This document shows positions 21,187 to 48,741 of a stretch of 64,000 nucleotides of DNA, in pieces; the stretch's first letter is position 1, and the number at the start of each line of letters is the position of its first letter. Both the position numbers and the translations under genes were made by a program. The notes beneath the pieces are model-generated. The model was not told where the DNA came from, searched no databases, and was given only the letters and a program-made list of their open reading frames with translations. Location: the NCBI RefSeq assembly GCF_937770335.1, contig NZ_CALJHY010000002.1:372001-436000 (forward strand), written 5' to 3'. This DNA comes from an uncultured Glaciecola sp. Its GTDB lineage: Bacteria; Pseudomonadota; Gammaproteobacteria; Enterobacterales; Alteromonadaceae.

Positions 21187-21263
<77 letters not shown>

Positions 21264-27859: not shown

Positions 27860-27936
<77 letters not shown>

Positions 27937-35061: not shown

Positions 35062-35138
35062 ACTCTCTCTTTTTGGCATGACTGAATTAGTGATCGGCAT
35101 GCTGTTGTTTAAACCATCTATCTATATTGGAGATAACT

Positions 35139-35408
35139 ATGTCACTAACTACACAAGAAATTGCAACAATCATATCGGATTACGGCGTTAAAGAAGGTGA
35201 TACAGGTTCACCAGAAGTTCAAGTTGCTTTGTTAAGTTATAACATCAACAAACTTCAAGGTCACTTTAAAGAGCATAAGAAAGACCACCATTCACGTCGT
35301 GGTTTATTACGCATGGTTAGCCAGCGTAGAACGTTACTCGATTACCTAAAAGGTAAAAACGTTGAGCGTTACCAAAGTCTTATCAAGCGCTTAGGCCTAC
35401 GTCGTTAA
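35139..35408 (+). CDS. rpsO: 30S ribosomal protein S15
   Basis: An 89-residue S15, binding 16S rRNA early in 30S assembly. It starts at the ATG ([16 protein letters not shown]) preceded by TTGGAGA; the upstream in-frame TTG lies inside that ribosome site. All conserved blocks are present ([29 protein letters not shown]). In E. coli S15 represses its own translation through a leader pseudoknot; I did not resolve one here. Confidence 0.97.
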
Positions 35409-41539: not shown

Positions 41540-41897
41540 TGGTGGAGCTGGCGGGAATTGAACCCGCGTCCAGAAAGCGTCAACCTTCGGTACTACATGC
41601 TTAGTTTGTCATTTATTTAATCCTATGGACCCCGACAAACAGGGTTCCTTCGGACTGGCCTAATACTATTTCGCGGTTCAACCTTAGACAAGTATCCCTC
41701 GCTATTTCACTAGTATGACCTTCCGTACCTCAGTTAGTGAAAAGAACTTGAGTGGAAGGGCCTATGCAGGGTATTAAGCTGCTAGTGCGTAGTTTTCGTC
41801 GTTTGCGACTATTTTTTTGCGGCTTTTTTAAGAGGCCAGCCGCACCTCTGCATGCACCTCCAGCATCATTGAATCCTGTCGAATCCAGAGCAGCCCC
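41540..41897 (-). ncRNA. ssrA: Transfer-messenger RNA
   Basis: A 358-nt tmRNA that rescues stalled ribosomes with SmpB. The 5' end is GGGGCTGCTCTGGATTCGAC and the 3' end is the tRNA-like TTCAATTCCCGCCAGCTCCACCA, with encoded CCA and the TTC-type T loop. The tag frame at 41774-41806 encodes ANDENYALAA then TAA, identical to the E. coli tag. The 5' end coincides with the left junction of an integrative element, so the native upstream promoter has been displaced. Confidence 0.97.
41881..41897. repeat. Attachment-site core, left (tmRNA 5' end)
   Basis: GAATCCAGAGCAGCCCC, the last 17 bases of the ssrA 5' end on the plus strand, repeated exactly at 48683-48699. Confidence 0.85.
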
Positions 41898-41902
41898 AGA
41901 TG

Positions 41903-41972
41903 TGTTACGAGTCGCGTGTAACAGGTTTCATAATATCATTATTTTTCACTAATAGTAACAACATTAGTAACA
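41903..41972. promoter_or_regulatory. Left-end GTAACA repeats (possible integrase arm sites)
   Basis: TGTTAC (41903-41908) and GTAACA (41918-41923) form a dyad, with further GTAACA at 41955-41960 and 41967-41972. The same motif occurs near the right end at 48621-48638. The pattern fits arm-type sites for integrase or an excision factor. Confidence 0.4.
41930..41958 (-). promoter_or_regulatory. Element-borne promoter now facing ssrA
   Basis: Minus-strand TTACTA (41953-41958), 17-base spacer, TATTAT (41930-41935). Transcription would start about 25-30 bases before the mature tmRNA 5' end. In the excised circle the same promoter would read across the core into the integrase. Confidence 0.45.
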
Positions 41973-42034
41973 TCAATATAAACAAGGAGTACTTTATATT
42001 ATTTATATTCTTAGGTTGAACTAACTTGACCACT

Positions 42035-42265
42035 TCAATCTCCGCTTTTAAATGCAAAGCAGAGTAATAAACCAATAATTGTTACTGTTACCAGTTGAAG
42101 TATAAGCAATTCACGCAAAACACTATGAAACGTTGGGTATTTAGCAAGATAAAAAGTGTATTCTACCCCTCCGCTATAACTGTTCTCAGCAACGGGAGGA
42201 AATAAAAACATAAGTGCCAAGCTCAAAGCCGTAAATATTAGAGTAAATCTTTGGTACATATTCAT
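42035..42265 (-). CDS. Small membrane protein, unknown
   Basis: A 76-residue protein with two hydrophobic segments (RFTLIFTALSLALMFLF and LILQLVTVTIIGLLLCF) joined by a short polar loop. An AAGGA ribosome site lies 8 bases before the ATG. It follows the 161-residue gene by 35 bases and may be co-transcribed. No family recognised. Confidence 0.6.
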   Translation of the reverse strand: MNMYQRFTLIFTALSLALMFLFPPVAENSYSGGVEYTFYLAKYPTFHSVLRELLILQLVTVTIIGLLLCFAFKSGD

Positions 42266-42300
42266 TGGTATTTCCTTATTTTTACATTTATCTAGGAGAG

Positions 42301-42786
42301 CTACGAGCCTCTTAATTTGCAATTCATAATACTGAAACGATTTATCTTCCGTTCAAAAAAAATAGACTTAAGATTATGAGGCTTTTGATTACTTACACTA
42401 TATTTATAACTAATCATTTTGTCTTGTGATAGTGTTCTTAATTTGGTTTTAACCTCACCTCTGCAGATATCTTCAAACTTCTCAGTTAGCTTTTGCCTGT
42501 TCGGTTTAACAGTAAAGAACAGAGTGTGATACGGCATCACTATATATTTACTATCTATCGGAGCATCGCAGTAATAAGAAGAGTCGGTATTTTTTAAAGC
42601 AAGCCGCCATAAAATTGTGTGTTTATGATAGCGACTAATCCATTTTCTAAATTGTTTACCATGCTCTAGGGCATCTCTTGAGTTACTGTAAGATTGATAA
42701 AAGATGCTTACTTGGCATACCCAATCATAATTATCTAGGTGTTGTATGAATATTCGCTTTGATTTATCTTCAGCAGACTCTGGCAT
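42301..42786 (-). CDS. Hypothetical element protein (161 aa)
   Basis: A basic, soluble 161-residue protein rich in Lys, Arg and aromatic residues (FRKWISRYHKHTILWRLALK, MPYHTLFFTVKPNR). The Phe/Tyr/Lys pattern with a central strand-like LFFTVKPN suggests nucleic-acid binding, but no known catalytic motif is seen. It forms a small minus-strand unit with the downstream membrane protein. Confidence 0.55.
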   Translation of the reverse strand: MPESAEDKSKRIFIQHLDNYDWVCQVSIFYQSYSNSRDALEHGKQFRKWISRYHKHTILWRLALKNTDSSYYCDAPIDSKYIVMPYHTLFFTVKPNRQKLTEKFEDICRGEVKTKLRTLSQDKMISYKYSVSNQKPHNLKSIFFERKINRFSIMNCKLRGS

Positions 42787-43122
42787 TTATTTACTTTAAT
42801 GTTCGATGTGTACGGTTTAGGTTATTACATGATTCTTATTGTAGCAACATAAAGTAGATATATTACTTCCTATACTCTAAAACTAGTAAAGCAGTAAGGG
42901 CTTTAATTATATTGTGCTACATGTCATTTTCGTTATTATTTATAGTGCTACTTTAGCGGTAGTTTTGTGTTCTTTTTAAGGTTTTTAAGCAACTAGCCTA
43001 AAGTGCAGTTATTTAGATTAGCTGCTGAGCTTATTATTGAGACACCGAATGAGCTGTTTGGGTGTAAGGGGGGCTCTTTAATTTGTTTTCACTAACTCAA
43101 ACTTGAACTGGCAAATATAAAC
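42787..43122. other. Intergenic stretch in the element
   Basis: 336 AT-rich bases with no credible gene. It should contain the promoter of the 161-residue gene; I see no clear terminator or repeat. Confidence 0.4.
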
Positions 43123-43608
43123 TCAATCAAATAGCTTTGCTTTTTCTTTCTCAAACTCTTCTCTGGTGATTAAACCCTTTTCTAGCAGTCGACCTAGCCT
43201 CTCAAGCTGGTCATAAGCCTCCACTGAATTTTTGGTTTTGCTCTTGCTGGCTTCTTCACAAACAAAGATTAATTCAACTCTAGGGAAATTTCCTAAAATA
43301 TGAGGGGGTACTGAGGTTTGCTCTTTAATTACTTGATATCCTAGCTTCCTTTGCTCACAAAAGCGGTTTGCTCGATTCTCAGCCATCTCTCTAACTTCGT
43401 TTAAGGTTACAAATCCACTATTACCATGCTGAAAAACCCTATACTCGATTAACTCGTTTTCGTTATCTGAAACAGAAGTTATATTCCCTTCGAATACTGC
43501 GTTCTGAAAGCCTGAATTAGACTTTGCGGCTTCTATTATTGGGGAGGCAGAGGAGCAAGCTTGCGTTAATGCGATAAGGCTTAAGGTAAATAATAGATTT
43601 TTCGACAC
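43123..43608 (-). CDS. Lipoprotein with C-terminal SHOCT-like motif
   Basis: A 161-residue lipoprotein: lipobox LIALTQAC, a middle domain (GNSGFVTLNEVREMAENRAN .. FPRVELIFVC) and a C-terminal short helix pair (DQLERLGRLLEKGLITREEF) matching the SHOCT motif. A GTG start is supported by AAGGAAGGG. The middle domain shares SGFV, an alpha helix with Cys, and FPxVELxFxC with the next lipoprotein (43753-44016), so the two look paralogous. Confidence 0.72.
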   Translation of the reverse strand: MSKNLLFTLSLIALTQACSSASPIIEAAKSNSGFQNAVFEGNITSVSDNENELIEYRVFQHGNSGFVTLNEVREMAENRANRFCEQRKLGYQVIKEQTSVPPHILGNFPRVELIFVCEEASKSKTKNSVEAYDQLERLGRLLEKGLITREEFEKEKAKLFD

Positions 43609-43752
43609 TTTCCCTTCCTTGAGTTTGATTATCTTCTAATGTGAAAGTTGAGTTATGGAAATTACAAATAAAGCATGGCGAACTTTAAGATATTATCACA
43701 CTCAAACAGGTTTCATCTCAGCGTTTCGTTAGGCGTTTTTAGTGCGCCAGAA

Positions 43753-44016
43753 CTAAACGCATTTAAACTTTAATTCAACCTCAGGAAACTTACCAAAACC
43801 AGAGTCTGAATTGAATGAAACTTCTTCAAGTGACTTACTGAGGGTTTTGCAATGCTTCTCAGCACCCTTGTAAGCATCAGCTTTCATACCACCTACAGGA
43901 ACAAACCCACTTTGGCCAGAAATCATTATTGTATATGTATCATCGCCTATGGGTATTATTCCGGGACTCGATGTACAGCCAACAAGAGTTAATGCGAGTA
44001 ATAACAATCTAATCAT
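43753..44016 (-). CDS. Small lipoprotein, paralogue of 43123-43608
   Basis: An 87-residue lipoprotein (lipobox LTLVGC) with the domain GQSGFVPVGGMKADAYKGAE .. KHC .. FPEVELKFKC. It lacks the SHOCT tail of its neighbour. AAGGA precedes the ATG. The function is unknown; exclusion or envelope modification by the element would be guesses. Confidence 0.65.
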   Translation of the reverse strand: MIRLLLLALTLVGCTSSPGIIPIGDDTYTIMISGQSGFVPVGGMKADAYKGAEKHCKTLSKSLEEVSFNSDSGFGKFPEVELKFKCV

Positions 44017-44028
44017 TATGCTGATTCC

Positions 44029-44244
44029 TTATTTACCTAGCAGCTTATTATGTAGAAGCCGCAACAATATCTCAACGTAAACTTTTTTATAACTATAGTA
44101 ATCTGCGGCATAAGCAAACAGTATCTGCGCCAGTACTTTCCTAGAATAGTTATTGCGAATTATCTTATATAAGAAATAGAGGACGTAACACAATAATTTC
44201 TGCAGAAATTCTGGAAGGGCTATGCATATAGCTTTATCAATCAT
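44029..44244 (-). CDS. Doubtful small ORF (71 aa)
   Basis: A 71-residue hydrophobic and basic product (LLCYVLYFLYKIIRNNYSRK). The AAGG before its ATG is too close to act well. Its first codons lie in a sequence repeated at 44923-44972, where a similar start is quickly followed by a stop. It may be a real small gene or a fragment. Confidence 0.3.
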   Translation of the reverse strand: MIDKAICIALPEFLQKLLCYVLYFLYKIIRNNYSRKVLAQILFAYAADYYSYKKVYVEILLRLLHNKLLGK

Positions 44245-44272
44245 CCTTCACCCCTTGTACGGGTAGGCTTGT
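44219..44272. repeat. Dispersed ~50-bp element repeat, copy 1
   Basis: Shares TATGCATATAGC and a downstream CCCCTTGTACGGGTAGG-like block with 44923-44972, same orientation. Confidence 0.45.
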
Positions 44273-44640
44273 TGCTAAAAACAATTCAGATATGGCTATT
44301 GTTATTCATATTGTTATTAGTACCTTTAAGACTATAGCTATATAGGTTTGGTTTAACCCTCTATTTAGGGTGTATCTCGCCATTACGAGGTTTGAAGTGC
44401 ACACCCCTTGTCACCTATCAGATTCCCTTTCAAACATTAAAGTAGGCATTAAAAGGCGGTTTTAAGCATCAAACACTATCAATAAAGTATTTAGCTTACT
44501 GTCACTCAATAGGGTGTTATTTCTATTAATAGTTAAGCATTTTAAGGGCCTTCTGAGAATGTCAGATTGTTTGCTGGTAGGTGGTTAGCGAGTTATCGTT
44601 ATAATTCAAGGGTAAGCATTACAAGTAAAGGGAGATTGAT
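44245..44640. other. Intergenic stretch in the element
   Basis: About 400 bases without a gene apart from the tail of the dispersed repeat. AT-rich; several short TATAAT-like sequences precede the small plus-strand gene, none decisive. Confidence 0.4.
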
Positions 44641-44829
44641 ATGATAAGAAATGTGAAAGTGATAATAAGGCTGATTGGTCTTTTGGTATTAGCGACACTT
44701 TCAGGGCGCTCTAAGTATTCAACTTATGATGAGTGCAGGCTTGTTGAAGAAAAAGAGGGTGTACCCGAAATGACAGCGGTTAGTTACTGCTGGGAGTTAG
44801 TTAAAAAAGGGGAGATTTCTAGGGGGTAG
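44641..44829 (+). CDS. Small exported protein (62 aa)
   Basis: A 62-residue product with an N-terminal hydrophobic segment (VIIRLIGLLVLATLSG) and a short polar tail with two cysteines (YDECRLVEE, VSYCWELVKKG). GGGAGATTGAT precedes the ATG, a good ribosome site. The lipobox-like position reads TLSGRS without Cys, so a cleaved or anchored peptide is more likely than a lipoprotein. Unknown function. Confidence 0.5.
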   Translation: MIRNVKVIIRLIGLLVLATLSGRSKYSTYDECRLVEEKEGVPEMTAVSYCWELVKKGEISRG

Positions 44830-45311
44830 TATTTGGTGTGTTTTGCTTTGTTCTTTTGTAAGGAAAGCTAGCTTGGAGGCGCTTCAAAAGTTTGTAATTT
44901 TTGTAAAGATTCTTAAGAGGTTATGCATATAGCCGCATAAGCCAACAATCCCCCTGTGCGGGTAGGGTTTATCATTGGAGTTAAATTAAGTAAACTACTT
45001 ATTACGATGATTATCGCACCTATCGCTATCGTAATTATTAAGAATACACTTACCCCTCACTCATAACTCCCGCATAAGCCCCTGAGTGGCTATATAAGGG
45101 GTTTTAATTAAGAATCTACATATACCTACGTGGTTTACTTTAAGCCTCCTGCATTTGCTTTTAATTGGCGATTAGATTTCAGGGACTATCAATAGGGTAT
45201 ACCTATTTGAGTGAATCTCGACAGGTGAGTTAGTGAAGCTTTCTCTATCAATAGCCTTGCAAAATAACCTTAATGATATATTATCAATGAGGGTTGGTTG
45301 ATTATAGGTAT
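44830..45311. other. Intergenic stretch with hairpin
   Basis: About 480 bases without a gene. It holds the second dispersed repeat (44923-44972) and a weak hairpin CCCCT/AGGGG at 45079-45101 followed by TTTT, a possible terminator. Confidence 0.4.
44923..44972. repeat. Dispersed ~50-bp element repeat, copy 2
   Basis: Partner of 44219-44272: TATGCATATAGC, then CCCCCTGTGCGGGTAGGG. Confidence 0.45.
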
Positions 45312-45317
45312 ATGATA

Positions 45318-45941
45318 ATGAAAGCAAGGGCATATTTGAGAGCGTCTACAAAAGAACAGGATAGTCGAAGAGCAGAAGAATTATTAAGCTCATTTGCAAT
45401 TACTAATCAGTTGGAGATTATTGATACGTACTTTGAGAACTACTCTGGAACGAAGTTAAACAGGCCTGTTTTAAATAAGTTGTTATTGGACTCTAATTTA
45501 GGGGAGGTCTTACTAGTGGAGTCCGTGGATAGGCTATCAAGACTTAGTTATGATGACTTCGATACATTGAAGCGAAGGTTATCAGATAATGGCTTGAGAT
45601 TGGTGGTTGTGGATTTACCTACCACTCATATGAATCTTTCTACTGGTATCACTGGAGAAGTGATGCGGGTCATTAATAATATGTTGATTGATTTAATGGC
45701 GACTATGGCAAGGCTGGATCAAGAAAAACGTATTGAAAGGATTAAGCAAGGAATGGATAGGGCTAAGATTCAAGGTAGAAGAATTGGAGGGAGGGGTAAA
45801 AATAAGCAATTCAGAGAGCAGGTTGAAAAATATCTAGCGAGGGATATGACGGCTCAAGAGATTTCTAAGTTAGTTGGTTGTGGTGTTGCCACTGTTTATC
45901 GGGTGCAAAAAGAGTTTAGTGTTAAGTTGTATCCAAAATAG
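45318..45941 (+). CDS. Serine recombinase / resolvase family protein
   Basis: A 207-residue resolvase-type recombinase. The catalytic Ser10 lies in AYLRASTKEQD, and the conserved VESVDRLSRLSYDDF and MIDLMATMARLDQEKRIERI follow. A C-terminal helix-turn-helix (MTAQEISKLVGCGVATVYRV) binds DNA. Resolvases of this size resolve cointegrates or invert segments; here it may assist the element's circle or act on a nearby site. The ATG at 45318 is favoured by an AGG upstream; 45312 is an alternative. Confidence 0.9.
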   Translation: MKARAYLRASTKEQDSRRAEELLSSFAITNQLEIIDTYFENYSGTKLNRPVLNKLLLDSNLGEVLLVESVDRLSRLSYDDFDTLKRRLSDNGLRLVVVDLPTTHMNLSTGITGEVMRVINNMLIDLMATMARLDQEKRIERIKQGMDRAKIQGRRIGGRGKNKQFREQVEKYLARDMTAQEISKLVGCGVATVYRVQKEFSVKLYPK

Positions 45942-46246
45942 TAAGCTTCCTAAGAAATTTACAATAGATTGAATGTAGGTTATTCAGTCGAATCTTCGAC
46001 GATTTTAAATTGAGAGTTAGACCAAGCCTTATAGTTTCCTGCGCTGCGATTAGAGTCGCTCGACCTTAATTATTAGTACGTTATGAAAGTTAAGGTTGTG
46101 TACTTATTGCATAAAAACTATACTTTAGTCGAAGTGCAGTGTCGAGTACACTATATTCTAGCACCTCAAGCATGGATACACGGATGACTTGAATACTCAA
46201 AGTAAGTGAGTGTTTTTTAAATTTATGGACTAAAGGATTATCAAAA
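45942..46246. other. Intergenic stretch before the barrel gene
   Basis: 305 bases without a gene. It contains the promoter at 46096-46124; nothing else is recognised. Confidence 0.4.
46096..46124 (+). promoter_or_regulatory. Promoter of the small barrel gene
   Basis: TTGTGT (46096-46101), 17-base spacer, TATACT (46119-46124), about 120 bases before the ATG. Confidence 0.6.
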
Positions 46247-46822
46247 ATGAAAAGAAAATTTTTACTCTTAGCGGCCCTCGCAATGACTTCATCAGCAACA
46301 CTTGCAGGAACTCCAGCTTTTAACTTTATAGAAGCTGGTTATGGCACAGCCGATATTGACGACGTTGACGAAGTGTCTCCAAGCGGGTTTGCAATTGGAG
46401 GGAGTTTCTTAGTGGGTGAAAGCGTCTTTGTAACAGCTAGTTACGCTTCTCTTGGCGACGATGTATTCGGTACTGACATTGATTTAGTAACTAGCTCGAT
46501 TGGCCTTGGCTATCGCCTTAGCCTGACAGATTCAACAGATGCCTATGCGTCAGTAAGTTACGAATATGTCGAGGCTGATATTGAAGGCTTTGGAAGTGAG
46601 GACGATAATGGATACGGGTTAACCGTTGGGTTTAGAAGTCGATTAACTGAGCAATTTGAATTGGATGGTTCAATTGGTTATGTCGATATCGCCGATGAAA
46701 GTGAGACAGCTGTCGGTATCAGTGGACACTATTATTTTACTCCTAATTTCGCCGTGGGATTATCTTATTCGACTACGGCTGATATAAGTATAACAGGGGT
46801 TTCCGCTCGTTATGCTTTCTAG
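46247..46822 (+). CDS. Outer-membrane beta-barrel protein (OmpA/opacity-like)
   Basis: A 191-residue exported protein: signal peptide MKRKFLLLAALAMTSSATLA, then eight or so amphipathic strands (FNFIEAGYGTADI, AIGGSFLVGESVFVTASYAS .., HYYFTPNFAVGLSYS) ending in C-terminal Phe (SARYAF), the usual BamA signal. It matches small barrel proteins of the OMP_b-brl type. The mature part is acidic and Gly-rich. It may be cargo that changes the host surface. Confidence 0.82.
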   Translation: MKRKFLLLAALAMTSSATLAGTPAFNFIEAGYGTADIDDVDEVSPSGFAIGGSFLVGESVFVTASYASLGDDVFGTDIDLVTSSIGLGYRLSLTDSTDAYASVSYEYVEADIEGFGSEDDNGYGLTVGFRSRLTEQFELDGSIGYVDIADESETAVGISGHYYFTPNFAVGLSYSTTADISITGVSARYAF

Positions 46823-46844
46823 TAGAGTTTAAGTAATGACTGAG

Positions 46845-46873
46845 GCTCACTCTACGTTTAAGGGTGGGCTTTT
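46845..46873 (+). terminator. Probable terminator of the barrel gene
   Basis: GCTCACTC (46845-46852) pairs with GGGTGGGC (46862-46869) using two G-T pairs, then TTTT. Confidence 0.55.
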
Positions 46874-47043
46874 CTATATCGCAGAAAACATTAAAAGTTA
46901 GACATTGCACTGAAACTTTTACAAAGGTCTTTCTATGTTTAAATGTGCTAGATTAAGTTTAAGCCATTACAAATAGTGATGTTTTACAAATATTTAAAGT
47001 GCTTAGTCTGATTTGTGGTGCTCACAAATTTTAATGAATTTAG

Positions 47044-48603
47044 TTATTCTTGCCAGTCGACCAATGTGGTTAGTTTAGTAATATTTATATTTTCCTTTCT
47101 TATGTAGGAAGCTGTTTGTTTTAGCTCTTTGTTACTATGACCTACAATTAGCTGTAAAAGCCCTAATTTATCAGGGTGGCGCTGGAATGTTTCATTGATA
47201 AATGTTGTTCTGAATGAATGAAAAACTTTTCGTCTTCCATTAGCGGTTTCTTTTGGAATGCCTAACTTGGGGAAGAAGTTCATTCTAAAGAAGTCACCAA
47301 TAGGCTTACTGTATGGCTCATTATTTCTAGGTGCTAAGCCCTCCCAAATATTTGTGTTATTTGGTTTGGTAGATGCTTCCTGTGCCCAATCACTGAAAAT
47401 CTTATGAAGCGGTATTATTCTTTTCCCACTTTCTGTCTTTATGCTTTGCCCTTCGTTCAGCGTCATTAAATCCAAGTAATACCTAGATGTTTCTTTATCA
47501 AACTTAACGTCTTGAGCTTGTAACTGGCCTAACTCAGATGCCCTAGCTCCAGTATATATTGCTAGCATCGGTATCCAGTATTTCCAGCCTGAATAATCCT
47601 TTAGCTTTTCCTTGATTAACGCAATCTCATCAGGTGTGTATGAAGCCCAACCGCTATCATCATCATTGGGTTTTAATTGTACTCCAATGAAGGGATTGGA
47701 GGCCACCACATCATTGGCAACTAACCAGCTAAAAAATTGATTATATCGTTGGTAATATTTTTCAATAGTCGAATGTTTTCTAGGGGGATTTCCAGAATCT
47801 AATAGTTCATCAAGAGTACTGTTCCCTCTGTGCCTAGAGGGAGGTAGTAAATAAAGTGTATCTATAAATCCTTCAACTTTTAGTTTTGTTAGCTCTATTG
47901 GTGAAATATCGCCTTTAACAAATAAGAACTCCTTAAATGAGTCATTAAATTGTTTGACGCGGTTTTCGCTTGACGGGTTTCTTGAATTTTGAATCTCATC
48001 CAAAAACTTCTCGAAATAGCTACTTATCTTTTCGTTGGTATTTTTTTCTTTGAACAGGTTTTCAAGTTGTCTTTCTTTTATGAAGTCCCTTTCTATTTTG
48101 GCTTTTAGGAGGGCTCTGACTTTATCCAATTGTGAGCTTGTGTCATCACTAAAATGTTTTGAGTCCCAGTAAATTTTTCTATATTCATTACTCATATAGG
48201 AAAGGGCTAGGAGCACTTCTTGCCTAGGCTCCTTAAATAAACCACCCCCATTAAGAGCTTGATACTGCAAATTACCTAGCTCGCTAAACGCATGGTCGCT
48301 AAAATCACTGGTATCATAATTATCTTTAGGGGGTAAATTAAATATATCAACAATTTCTTCGGCTAATTCAATGGGATTGATAATCATTAATGTTTCTTCC
48401 TTGAGTTCACTTAATAACTTGCTCGATATACCTTTTTTACGCAATTGTAGCAGTCTAGCTGTGAAGTAAGAAAGGGCTTTTAAGGATACATTTAAATTGT
48501 TTGTTCGAAGACTAAATGCAAAGGGAGGATTTTGAATGCGAATATAAAATATTCCATTTCTCTCATAAAGGTATTTGGTGCTGACTGTCTTTATATTGTG
48601 CAT
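47044..48603 (-). CDS. Tyrosine-type site-specific integrase
   Basis: A 519-residue tyrosine recombinase. The N-terminus (STKYLYERNGIFYIRI) matches the DUF6538-type start of many island integrases. The catalytic domain shows TGARASELGQL (Arg), FHSFRTTF (HxxR), GHSNKELKQTASYI (His and Tyr nucleophile). The ATG at 48603 is chosen for this N-terminus. The frame stays open to a TTG at 48711, but that region includes the 17-bp attachment core and would begin near the predicted transcription start. It drives integration and excision of the ssrA element. Confidence 0.93.
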   Translation of the reverse strand: MHNIKTVSTKYLYERNGIFYIRIQNPPFAFSLRTNNLNVSLKALSYFTARLLQLRKKGISSKLLSELKEETLMIINPIELAEEIVDIFNLPPKDNYDTSDFSDHAFSELGNLQYQALNGGGLFKEPRQEVLLALSYMSNEYRKIYWDSKHFSDDTSSQLDKVRALLKAKIERDFIKERQLENLFKEKNTNEKISSYFEKFLDEIQNSRNPSSENRVKQFNDSFKEFLFVKGDISPIELTKLKVEGFIDTLYLLPPSRHRGNSTLDELLDSGNPPRKHSTIEKYYQRYNQFFSWLVANDVVASNPFIGVQLKPNDDDSGWASYTPDEIALIKEKLKDYSGWKYWIPMLAIYTGARASELGQLQAQDVKFDKETSRYYLDLMTLNEGQSIKTESGKRIIPLHKIFSDWAQEASTKPNNTNIWEGLAPRNNEPYSKPIGDFFRMNFFPKLGIPKETANGRRKVFHSFRTTFINETFQRHPDKLGLLQLIVGHSNKELKQTASYIRKENINITKLTTLVDWQE

Positions 48604-48620
48604 GCTAAATATGTCTCTTA

Positions 48621-48638
48621 GTAACTTATTTAGTAACA
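48621..48638. promoter_or_regulatory. Right-end GTAAC repeats (possible arm sites)
   Basis: GTAAC at 48621-48625 and GTAACA at 48633-48638, just before the integrase start, repeat the motif seen at the left end. Confidence 0.35.
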
Positions 48639-48682
48639 CTTTATGGGTATGCTTCCGAAAGCCATGTATGGCAGTGGGTTTA

Positions 48683-48699
48683 GAATCCAGAGCAGCCCC
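48683..48699. repeat. Attachment-site core, right
   Basis: Exact copy of GAATCCAGAGCAGCCCC at 41881-41897. To its right lies the presumed original upstream region of ssrA. Confidence 0.85.
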
Positions 48700-48712
48700 G
48701 AGATAAGACAAA

Positions 48713-48741
48713 ATTATAGCACGCTTTTATTGATAGGACAG
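48713..48741 (-). promoter_or_regulatory. Displaced native ssrA promoter, now facing integrase
   Basis: Minus-strand extended -10 TGCTATAAT (hexamer 48713-48718) with a partial -35 CTGTCC (48736-48741), spacer 17. The predicted start near 48706 would leave about 6-7 bases before the tmRNA 5' sequence, as in E. coli pre-tmRNA. In the present arrangement it transcribes the integrase. Confidence 0.6.

Follow-up and report, generated by a model that had tools for sequence, protein, structure and literature searches.

The tmRNA gene and its displaced 5' end

The window analysed here, a stretch of 64 kb from an uncultured Glaciecola sp., carries the gene ssrA for transfer-messenger RNA (tmRNA), directly followed on its upstream side by a 6.8-kb stretch that encodes a tyrosine integrase and ends in a second copy of the tmRNA 5' end. 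The RNA rescues stalled ribosomes and is essential in some bacteria. The locus is made up of the following features.

41540..41897, minus strand: ssrA (tmRNA), complete, with its 5' end at 41897 (ARAGORN and Rfam RF00023)
41881..41897, minus strand: 17-bp core at the ssrA junction, equal to nucleotides 1-17 of mature tmRNA
41898..48682, no strand assigned: element interior, 6785 bp between the cores
41930..41958, minus strand: promoter-like TTACTA-N17-TATTAT with TG, facing ssrA; it would face the integrase gene in a circle
41953..41971, plus strand: tandem arm-like TAGTAAC pair of the left end, copies at 41953 and 41965, 12 bp apart
47044..48603, minus strand: tyrosine integrase, 519 amino acids (aa) from the ATG (family matches, catalytic residues)
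48619..48637, plus strand: tandem arm-like TAGTAAC pair of the right end, copies at 48619 and 48631, 12 bp apart
48683..48699, minus strand: outer 17-bp core, a displaced copy of the tmRNA 5' end (exact repeat and empty sites)
48713..48721, minus strand: native ssrA extended -10 (TGCTATAAT), now facing the integrase gene

The match of ssrA to Rfam RF00023 covers 41540-41897 on the minus strand with an E value of 6.7e-92, and ARAGORN agrees. The two 17-bp cores are identical and form a direct repeat on one strand, 6802 bp from start to start; the 17-mer has no further exact copy anywhere in the genome (3.85 Mb). The first base of the outer core coincides with position +1 of mature tmRNA. Bounding of a 6.8-kb element by 17-bp copies of the tmRNA 5' end, as stated in the initial annotation, is thus confirmed at 41881-41897 and 48683-48699. 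The insertion has rebuilt the target gene, with the displaced fragment left at the far end of the element in unchanged orientation. Base composition does not mark the boundaries, since the G+C content of the element is 0.33-0.39 per kb and the flanks are not distinguishable from it.

The state of the locus without the element could be examined in 12 other genomes of the genus, here the Glaciecola group including Ningiella and Agaribacter, from which 13 ssrA loci (two of them from one genome) of at most 8 kb each were compared by blastn. An empty site is present in four of the 12, namely Glaciecola pallidula DSM 14239, Glaciecola sp. 33A, an uncultured Glaciecola metagenome-assembled genome and genome G003: the left and right flanks of the window overlap there by exactly 17 bp, with no insert. 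The sequence in front of ssrA in these four relatives corresponds to the right flank of the window, including the motif TATCTC and the extended -10, which reads TGTTATAAT in G003 and TGCTATAAT in the other three. It had been predicted that the sequence to the right of 48699 directly precedes ssrA in element-free relatives, and with these four genomes that prediction stands. TATCTC is found immediately 5' of ssrA in nine of the 12 genomes as well as in the outer flank of the window, and is absent at the window's own ssrA. Each of the 12 genomes has a single match to a degenerate pattern for the tmRNA 5' end, and the interior of the element has no blastn match in their ssrA loci. By comparison with these empty sites, the 6.8-kb stretch at ssrA is an insertion, and the exchange of upstream regions between ssrA and the integrase gene is established at the level of DNA.

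An origin of the outer 17 bp by chance or local duplication, without site-specific recombination, is extremely improbable. We found no point that supports it, and it is contradicted by the occurrence of the 17-mer in two copies only, the exact empty sites in four relatives, the adjoining integrase gene and the paired repeats at the element ends that are described below.

The ssrA upstream sequence of Glaciecola sp. UBA2563 (L012/L085) is unlike that of the rest of the genus, and its contig ends 95 bp upstream. This could reflect a second insertion or plain divergence.

The integrase and the arm-like repeats

The integrase reading frame is unbroken and lies just inside the outer core, which is 79 bp upstream of the ATG at 48603. 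This ATG is likely the start codon, and an in-frame GTG further upstream is possible; a start at TTG 48711 was rejected because the native transcript is predicted to begin only downstream of it, at 48706. The Pfam score of the protein is 24.9, just under the cut-off of 27.1, and the integrase match in PHROG has an E value of 9e-23. Residues R354, H462-x-x-R465, H489 and Y500 are aligned in all five sequences when four distant homologues from the order are included. These four are the only other relatives at E 1e-20 among 394 genomes of the order, with 28-29% identity in the C-terminal part. One homologue, L145, begins directly past the 3' end of a tRNA-Met gene, and the wider integrase family is therefore not tied to ssrA. 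Further relatives were present in 11 records of a plasmid collection and one phage record, at no more than 30.2% identity; none was found among solved structures, and none was confirmed in genome contigs and viral contigs with peptide patterns, which find close relatives only.

In known tyrosine integrase systems the attP core is flanked on either side by arm sites that the integrase binds, and for this reason the TAGTAAC pairs are taken, by analogy, as putative integrase arm sites. The left pair lies at a distance of 55 bp from its core, and the right pair, directly upstream of the integrase start codon, at 45 bp from the right core; both have one orientation and the same 12-bp spacing. A single TAGTAAC is not rare in the window, and it is the pairing that is the rare feature: no other pair at 12-bp spacing exists within the 64 kb, and among 20,000 simulated pairs of element ends (120-bp ends, first-order Markov sequences derived from the element, spacing 8-25 bp) none had any 7-mer repeated at equal spacing in both ends. 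A search for IHF-like sites was uninformative, with best matches of only 11 of 13 positions. That the cores, the arm-like pairs and the integrase gene are all unbroken suggests that the element is recent or still competent.

Exchange of upstream regions and the putative promoter swap

The initial annotation placed an extended -10 to the right of the outer core, with a transcript start 6-7 bases before the tmRNA sequence and directed at the integrase. This was found at 48713-48721, and the predicted start at 48706 is 7 nt before the tmRNA sequence; the predicted leader to the integrase ATG is now 103 nt. By a simple sigma-70 score, 0.007 of the sequences resampled from the upstream region on the element side did at least as well as this native promoter, and among the other stretches sampled from the window none did. 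For the element side, the orientations that had been claimed for TTACTA-N17-TATTAT, towards ssrA in the chromosome and towards the integrase gene in the circle, were reproduced with a circle junction assembled by script (right end, core and left end), in which the promoter-like sequence lies upstream of the integrase gene. This sequence also has the TG of an extended -10 (TGATATTAT, 41930-41938), and its predicted leader is about 26 nt before the tmRNA. The first TAGTAAC of the left pair (41953) overlaps its -35, TTACTA being the complement of TAGTAA. The acceptor stem of pre-tmRNA is predicted to form with either leader, with best pairing probabilities no lower than 0.95 at any of its seven positions. 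Leader folding suggests that the integrase start-codon region is somewhat less open in the transcript made after integration than in that of the circle (9.2 vs 6.6 kcal/mol), a difference that is too uncertain for use.

These data lead to a scheme that we consider quite likely, in which an element with a tyrosine integrase recombined at the first 17 nucleotides of ssrA and exchanged the upstream regions, together with a putative swap of promoters. The integrase of the 6.8-kb element would recombine the 17-bp core of attP with the identical first 17 nucleotides of ssrA. Since an RNA gene is hit at its very start, the whole tmRNA would be rebuilt upon integration and all of its native upstream sequence severed at the same time. 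The native ssrA promoter, left on the far side, would then read into the integrase gene, and the left end of the element would serve as the new upstream region of ssrA, with its promoter-like extended -10. The tmRNA 5' end is matured by an RNase P cut, by which the 26-nt leader could in principle be removed. In the excised circle, the promoter-like sequence of the element would drive the integrase gene, and integrase bound at the left arm-like site would compete with RNA polymerase at the -35. Because this -35 lies inside the arm-like site, repression by the integrase, i.e. negative autoregulation, would be expected in the circle; in the integrated state the same overlap would sit before ssrA. 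Transcription of ssrA must then come from something in the element, unless read-through over 6.8 kb suffices, and judged from the sequence the tmRNA is probably made from DNA that the element brought along. In this scheme integrase would bind the arm-like repeats, the two promoters would be active, the leader would be cleaved off and excision would still take place.

Several observations weigh against parts of this scheme. The right flank has no continuous alignment up to ssrA in eight of the 12 genus genomes. An oxidoreductase gene adjoins ssrA in three of them (L067, L091, L103), where the intergenic stretch has diverged, and the other five (L069, L076, L085, L096, L097) have another arrangement, are unalignable in the stretch compared or reach a contig end. 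The score of the element promoter was reached by 0.20 of resampled sequences and by 0.10 of other window stretches, and its -10 part alone by 0.12 and 0.045, respectively. Its -35 matches at three of six positions, and a consensus promoter scan lists neither this sequence nor the native promoter. No excisionase was recognised in the nine element open reading frames (ORFs) of at least 60 aa that were scanned, which bears on present mobility. Finally, the genomes, viral contigs and plasmid and phage records searched yielded no further copy of the element, and conservation therefore provides no test of the promoters or arm-like sites.

The proposal of promoter exchange made in the initial annotation thus holds in part: insertion at the 5' end, transfer of the native promoter to the integrase gene and replacement of the ssrA upstream sequence follow from the empty sites, and the score of the element promoter is not above chance. 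Because 0.05-0.20 of comparison sequences reach that score, activity of the element promoter is only inferred. The functional part of the proposal is plausible: tmRNA may depend on the element, and integrase output may follow tmRNA transcription. The insertion may also have occurred as proposed with ssrA being transcribed from another promoter of the element and TTACTA/TATTAT being a chance match. Besides the chance-level score, this is favoured by minus-strand ORFs upstream of ssrA (42035-42786), from which read-through could occur, and by the fact that no terminator-like site is listed on the minus strand between these ORFs and ssrA. However, no other candidate within 150 bp upstream of ssrA scores as high as TTACTA/TATTAT, the -10 of which is also of the extended type with TG, and we regard the alternative as rather unlikely.

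It is somewhat more conceivable, though still doubtful, that the element is a domesticated and immobile remnant of a single past exchange, without excision and with integrase transcription that has no role. The single occurrence of the element and the lack of recognised excisionase and transfer genes in the nine ORFs scanned are in line with this, but the identical cores, the exact arm-like pairs and the open integrase frame with its catalytic residues kept are not. The tmRNA promoter may even act as an integration switch: the integrase gene would be weakly expressed and, through the arm-like site in the -35, self-repressed in the circle and placed under the strong ssrA promoter upon integration, with tmRNA depending on an element promoter that is sensitive to integrase. 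We consider this unlikely, and offer it as a speculation. If true, the integrase level would directly tune the ribosome-rescue capacity of the cell, and a host that lost the element end would be left without tmRNA.

Other genes, further candidates and comparison with known systems

The remainder of the element includes four ORFs that were listed separately, and otherwise contains small ORFs without family match.

42301..42786, minus strand: 161-aa ORF without family match (ORF list and family scans)
43123..43608, minus strand: SHOCT-domain protein (family match) with a lipoprotein-like N terminus (by eye)
45294..45941, plus strand: serine recombinase of the resolvase/invertase family (family match)
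46247..46822, plus strand: outer-membrane beta-barrel protein (family match)

Of 60 genomes searched, six in addition to that of the window have a relative of the serine recombinase with an E value of 1e-15 or lower, the best of them in another genus of the family (54% identity); the 12 other whole genomes of the genus hold none at E 1e-15. No replication or transfer gene was recognised in the nine element ORFs scanned. Elsewhere in the window, two tRNA-Met genes (21187-21263 and 27860-27936, minus strand) are identical over the gene and similar in their near flanks, 6.7 kb apart. The ORFs between them are sigma-factor-like, protease-like and repeat-protein-like by eye, and no recombinase was seen among those of at least 120 aa. 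A ribosomal S15 leader RNA (RF00114) is located at 35074-35195 on the plus strand.

Other insertions at the ssrA 5' end were sought by pattern in three overlapping sets of genomes, 295 from the family, 394 from the order and 369 from the class. The degenerate 5'-end pattern matched in 194 of the 295 family genomes, leaving 101 uncovered, and 21 genomes besides that of the window had at least two matches. Judged from positions and matched letters, with surroundings inspected for G619 only, none of these 21 has a 5' fragment near ssrA on one contig; in 10 of them the matches are on different contigs, so that a contig break inside an element is possible. In G619 two distinct and whole smpB-ssrA starts, not a fragment, were present on contigs C89 and C96 (L118, L129) of one assembly, which points to a duplicated locus or a mixed assembly. 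Genome G420 has six pattern matches, five of which are identical and unlike the tmRNA starts of the family. The pattern used for the order and class excludes intact ssrA, covers only GGGGCTGATT..GGATTC followed by a base other than G, and misses the window's own outer copy. It matched one of the 394 order genomes, on a different contig from the ssrA of that genome, and one of the 369 class genomes, in what resembles coding sequence by eye. Viral contigs gave 14 matches (8 + 6), none with a tmRNA gene on the examined stretch, and these are read as coding since all 14 are in open frames of at least 145 codons. An integrase-like ORF (by eye) lies 1-1.7 kb from the match in viral contigs L163, L165 and L167. 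These partial screens of family, order and class genomes and viral contigs thus gave no second case of insertion at the ssrA 5' end. Nor was such an element found in open-access full text, a scope outside which most subscription journals fall. The Islander method allows 5' fragments (PMC4383910), and ssrA 5'-end cases may therefore sit in the Islander database.

The tmRNA genes are a favoured landing site of mobile elements (PMC4383910). The vcr islands of Dehalococcoides, for example, are inserted in the T-loop region at the 3' end of ssrA by a serine recombinase (PMC3146451). They share the host gene with the present element, and differ in the end that is targeted and in the type of recombinase. 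ICEclc is a conjugative element at a tRNA gene, and its promoter Pcirc drives int in the circle; we know of no exchange of the host gene's promoter in that system. Pcirc has been described as constitutive and as directed out of the element (PMC9286271). For IntS of the KplE1 prophage, the integrase promoter overlaps integrase sites of the att region, and negative autoregulation was shown (PMC2951348). The feature that the present element may share with such autoregulated integrases, including that of P4, is an overlap of integrase sites with the integrase promoter. IntS targets the 3' end of a tRNA gene, whereas the overlap in the present element is predicted from repeats alone and the promoter concerned would serve ssrA after integration. 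A description of a predicted arm site within the promoter of a host tmRNA gene was not found in the literature covered.

Bacterial tRNA genes that are rebuilt by insertion keep their own promoter, with very few exceptions, and targeting of the 5' half of a tRNA gene is seldom met in bacteria (PMC8371274, citing Williams 2002). The pTN3-like elements of archaea do target the 5' half; it is then the integrase promoter that drives the rebuilt tRNA, and transcription from the tRNA promoter may enter the C-terminal fragment of the integrase (PMC8371274). The integrase gene of these elements is split on integration, whereas here the ORF is unbroken, the core lies upstream of it and the target is tmRNA.

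Bacterial parallels for an element that lands at the start of a host gene are SXT at prfC, which supplies a promoter, and the dusA-specific islands such as IMEVchUSA3, which bring a new promoter that was active in a lacZ fusion, at a lower level than the native one (PMC8409611). The native promoter is displaced from the target gene here as well. In those cases, however, the targets are protein genes with an altered N terminus, whereas here an RNA gene regains its exact mature sequence and its native promoter, now displaced, is directed at the integrase gene. Promoter exchange by insertion at a gene 5' end is thus already known, and the ssrA 5' end would be a new variant of it, the anatomy of which is well supported by the sequence comparisons. 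Landing at this end places a core RNA downstream of mobile-element sequence and gives the element a host promoter, and with relatives that have the ancestral promoter at hand, the effects on tmRNA level and integrase output are directly measurable.

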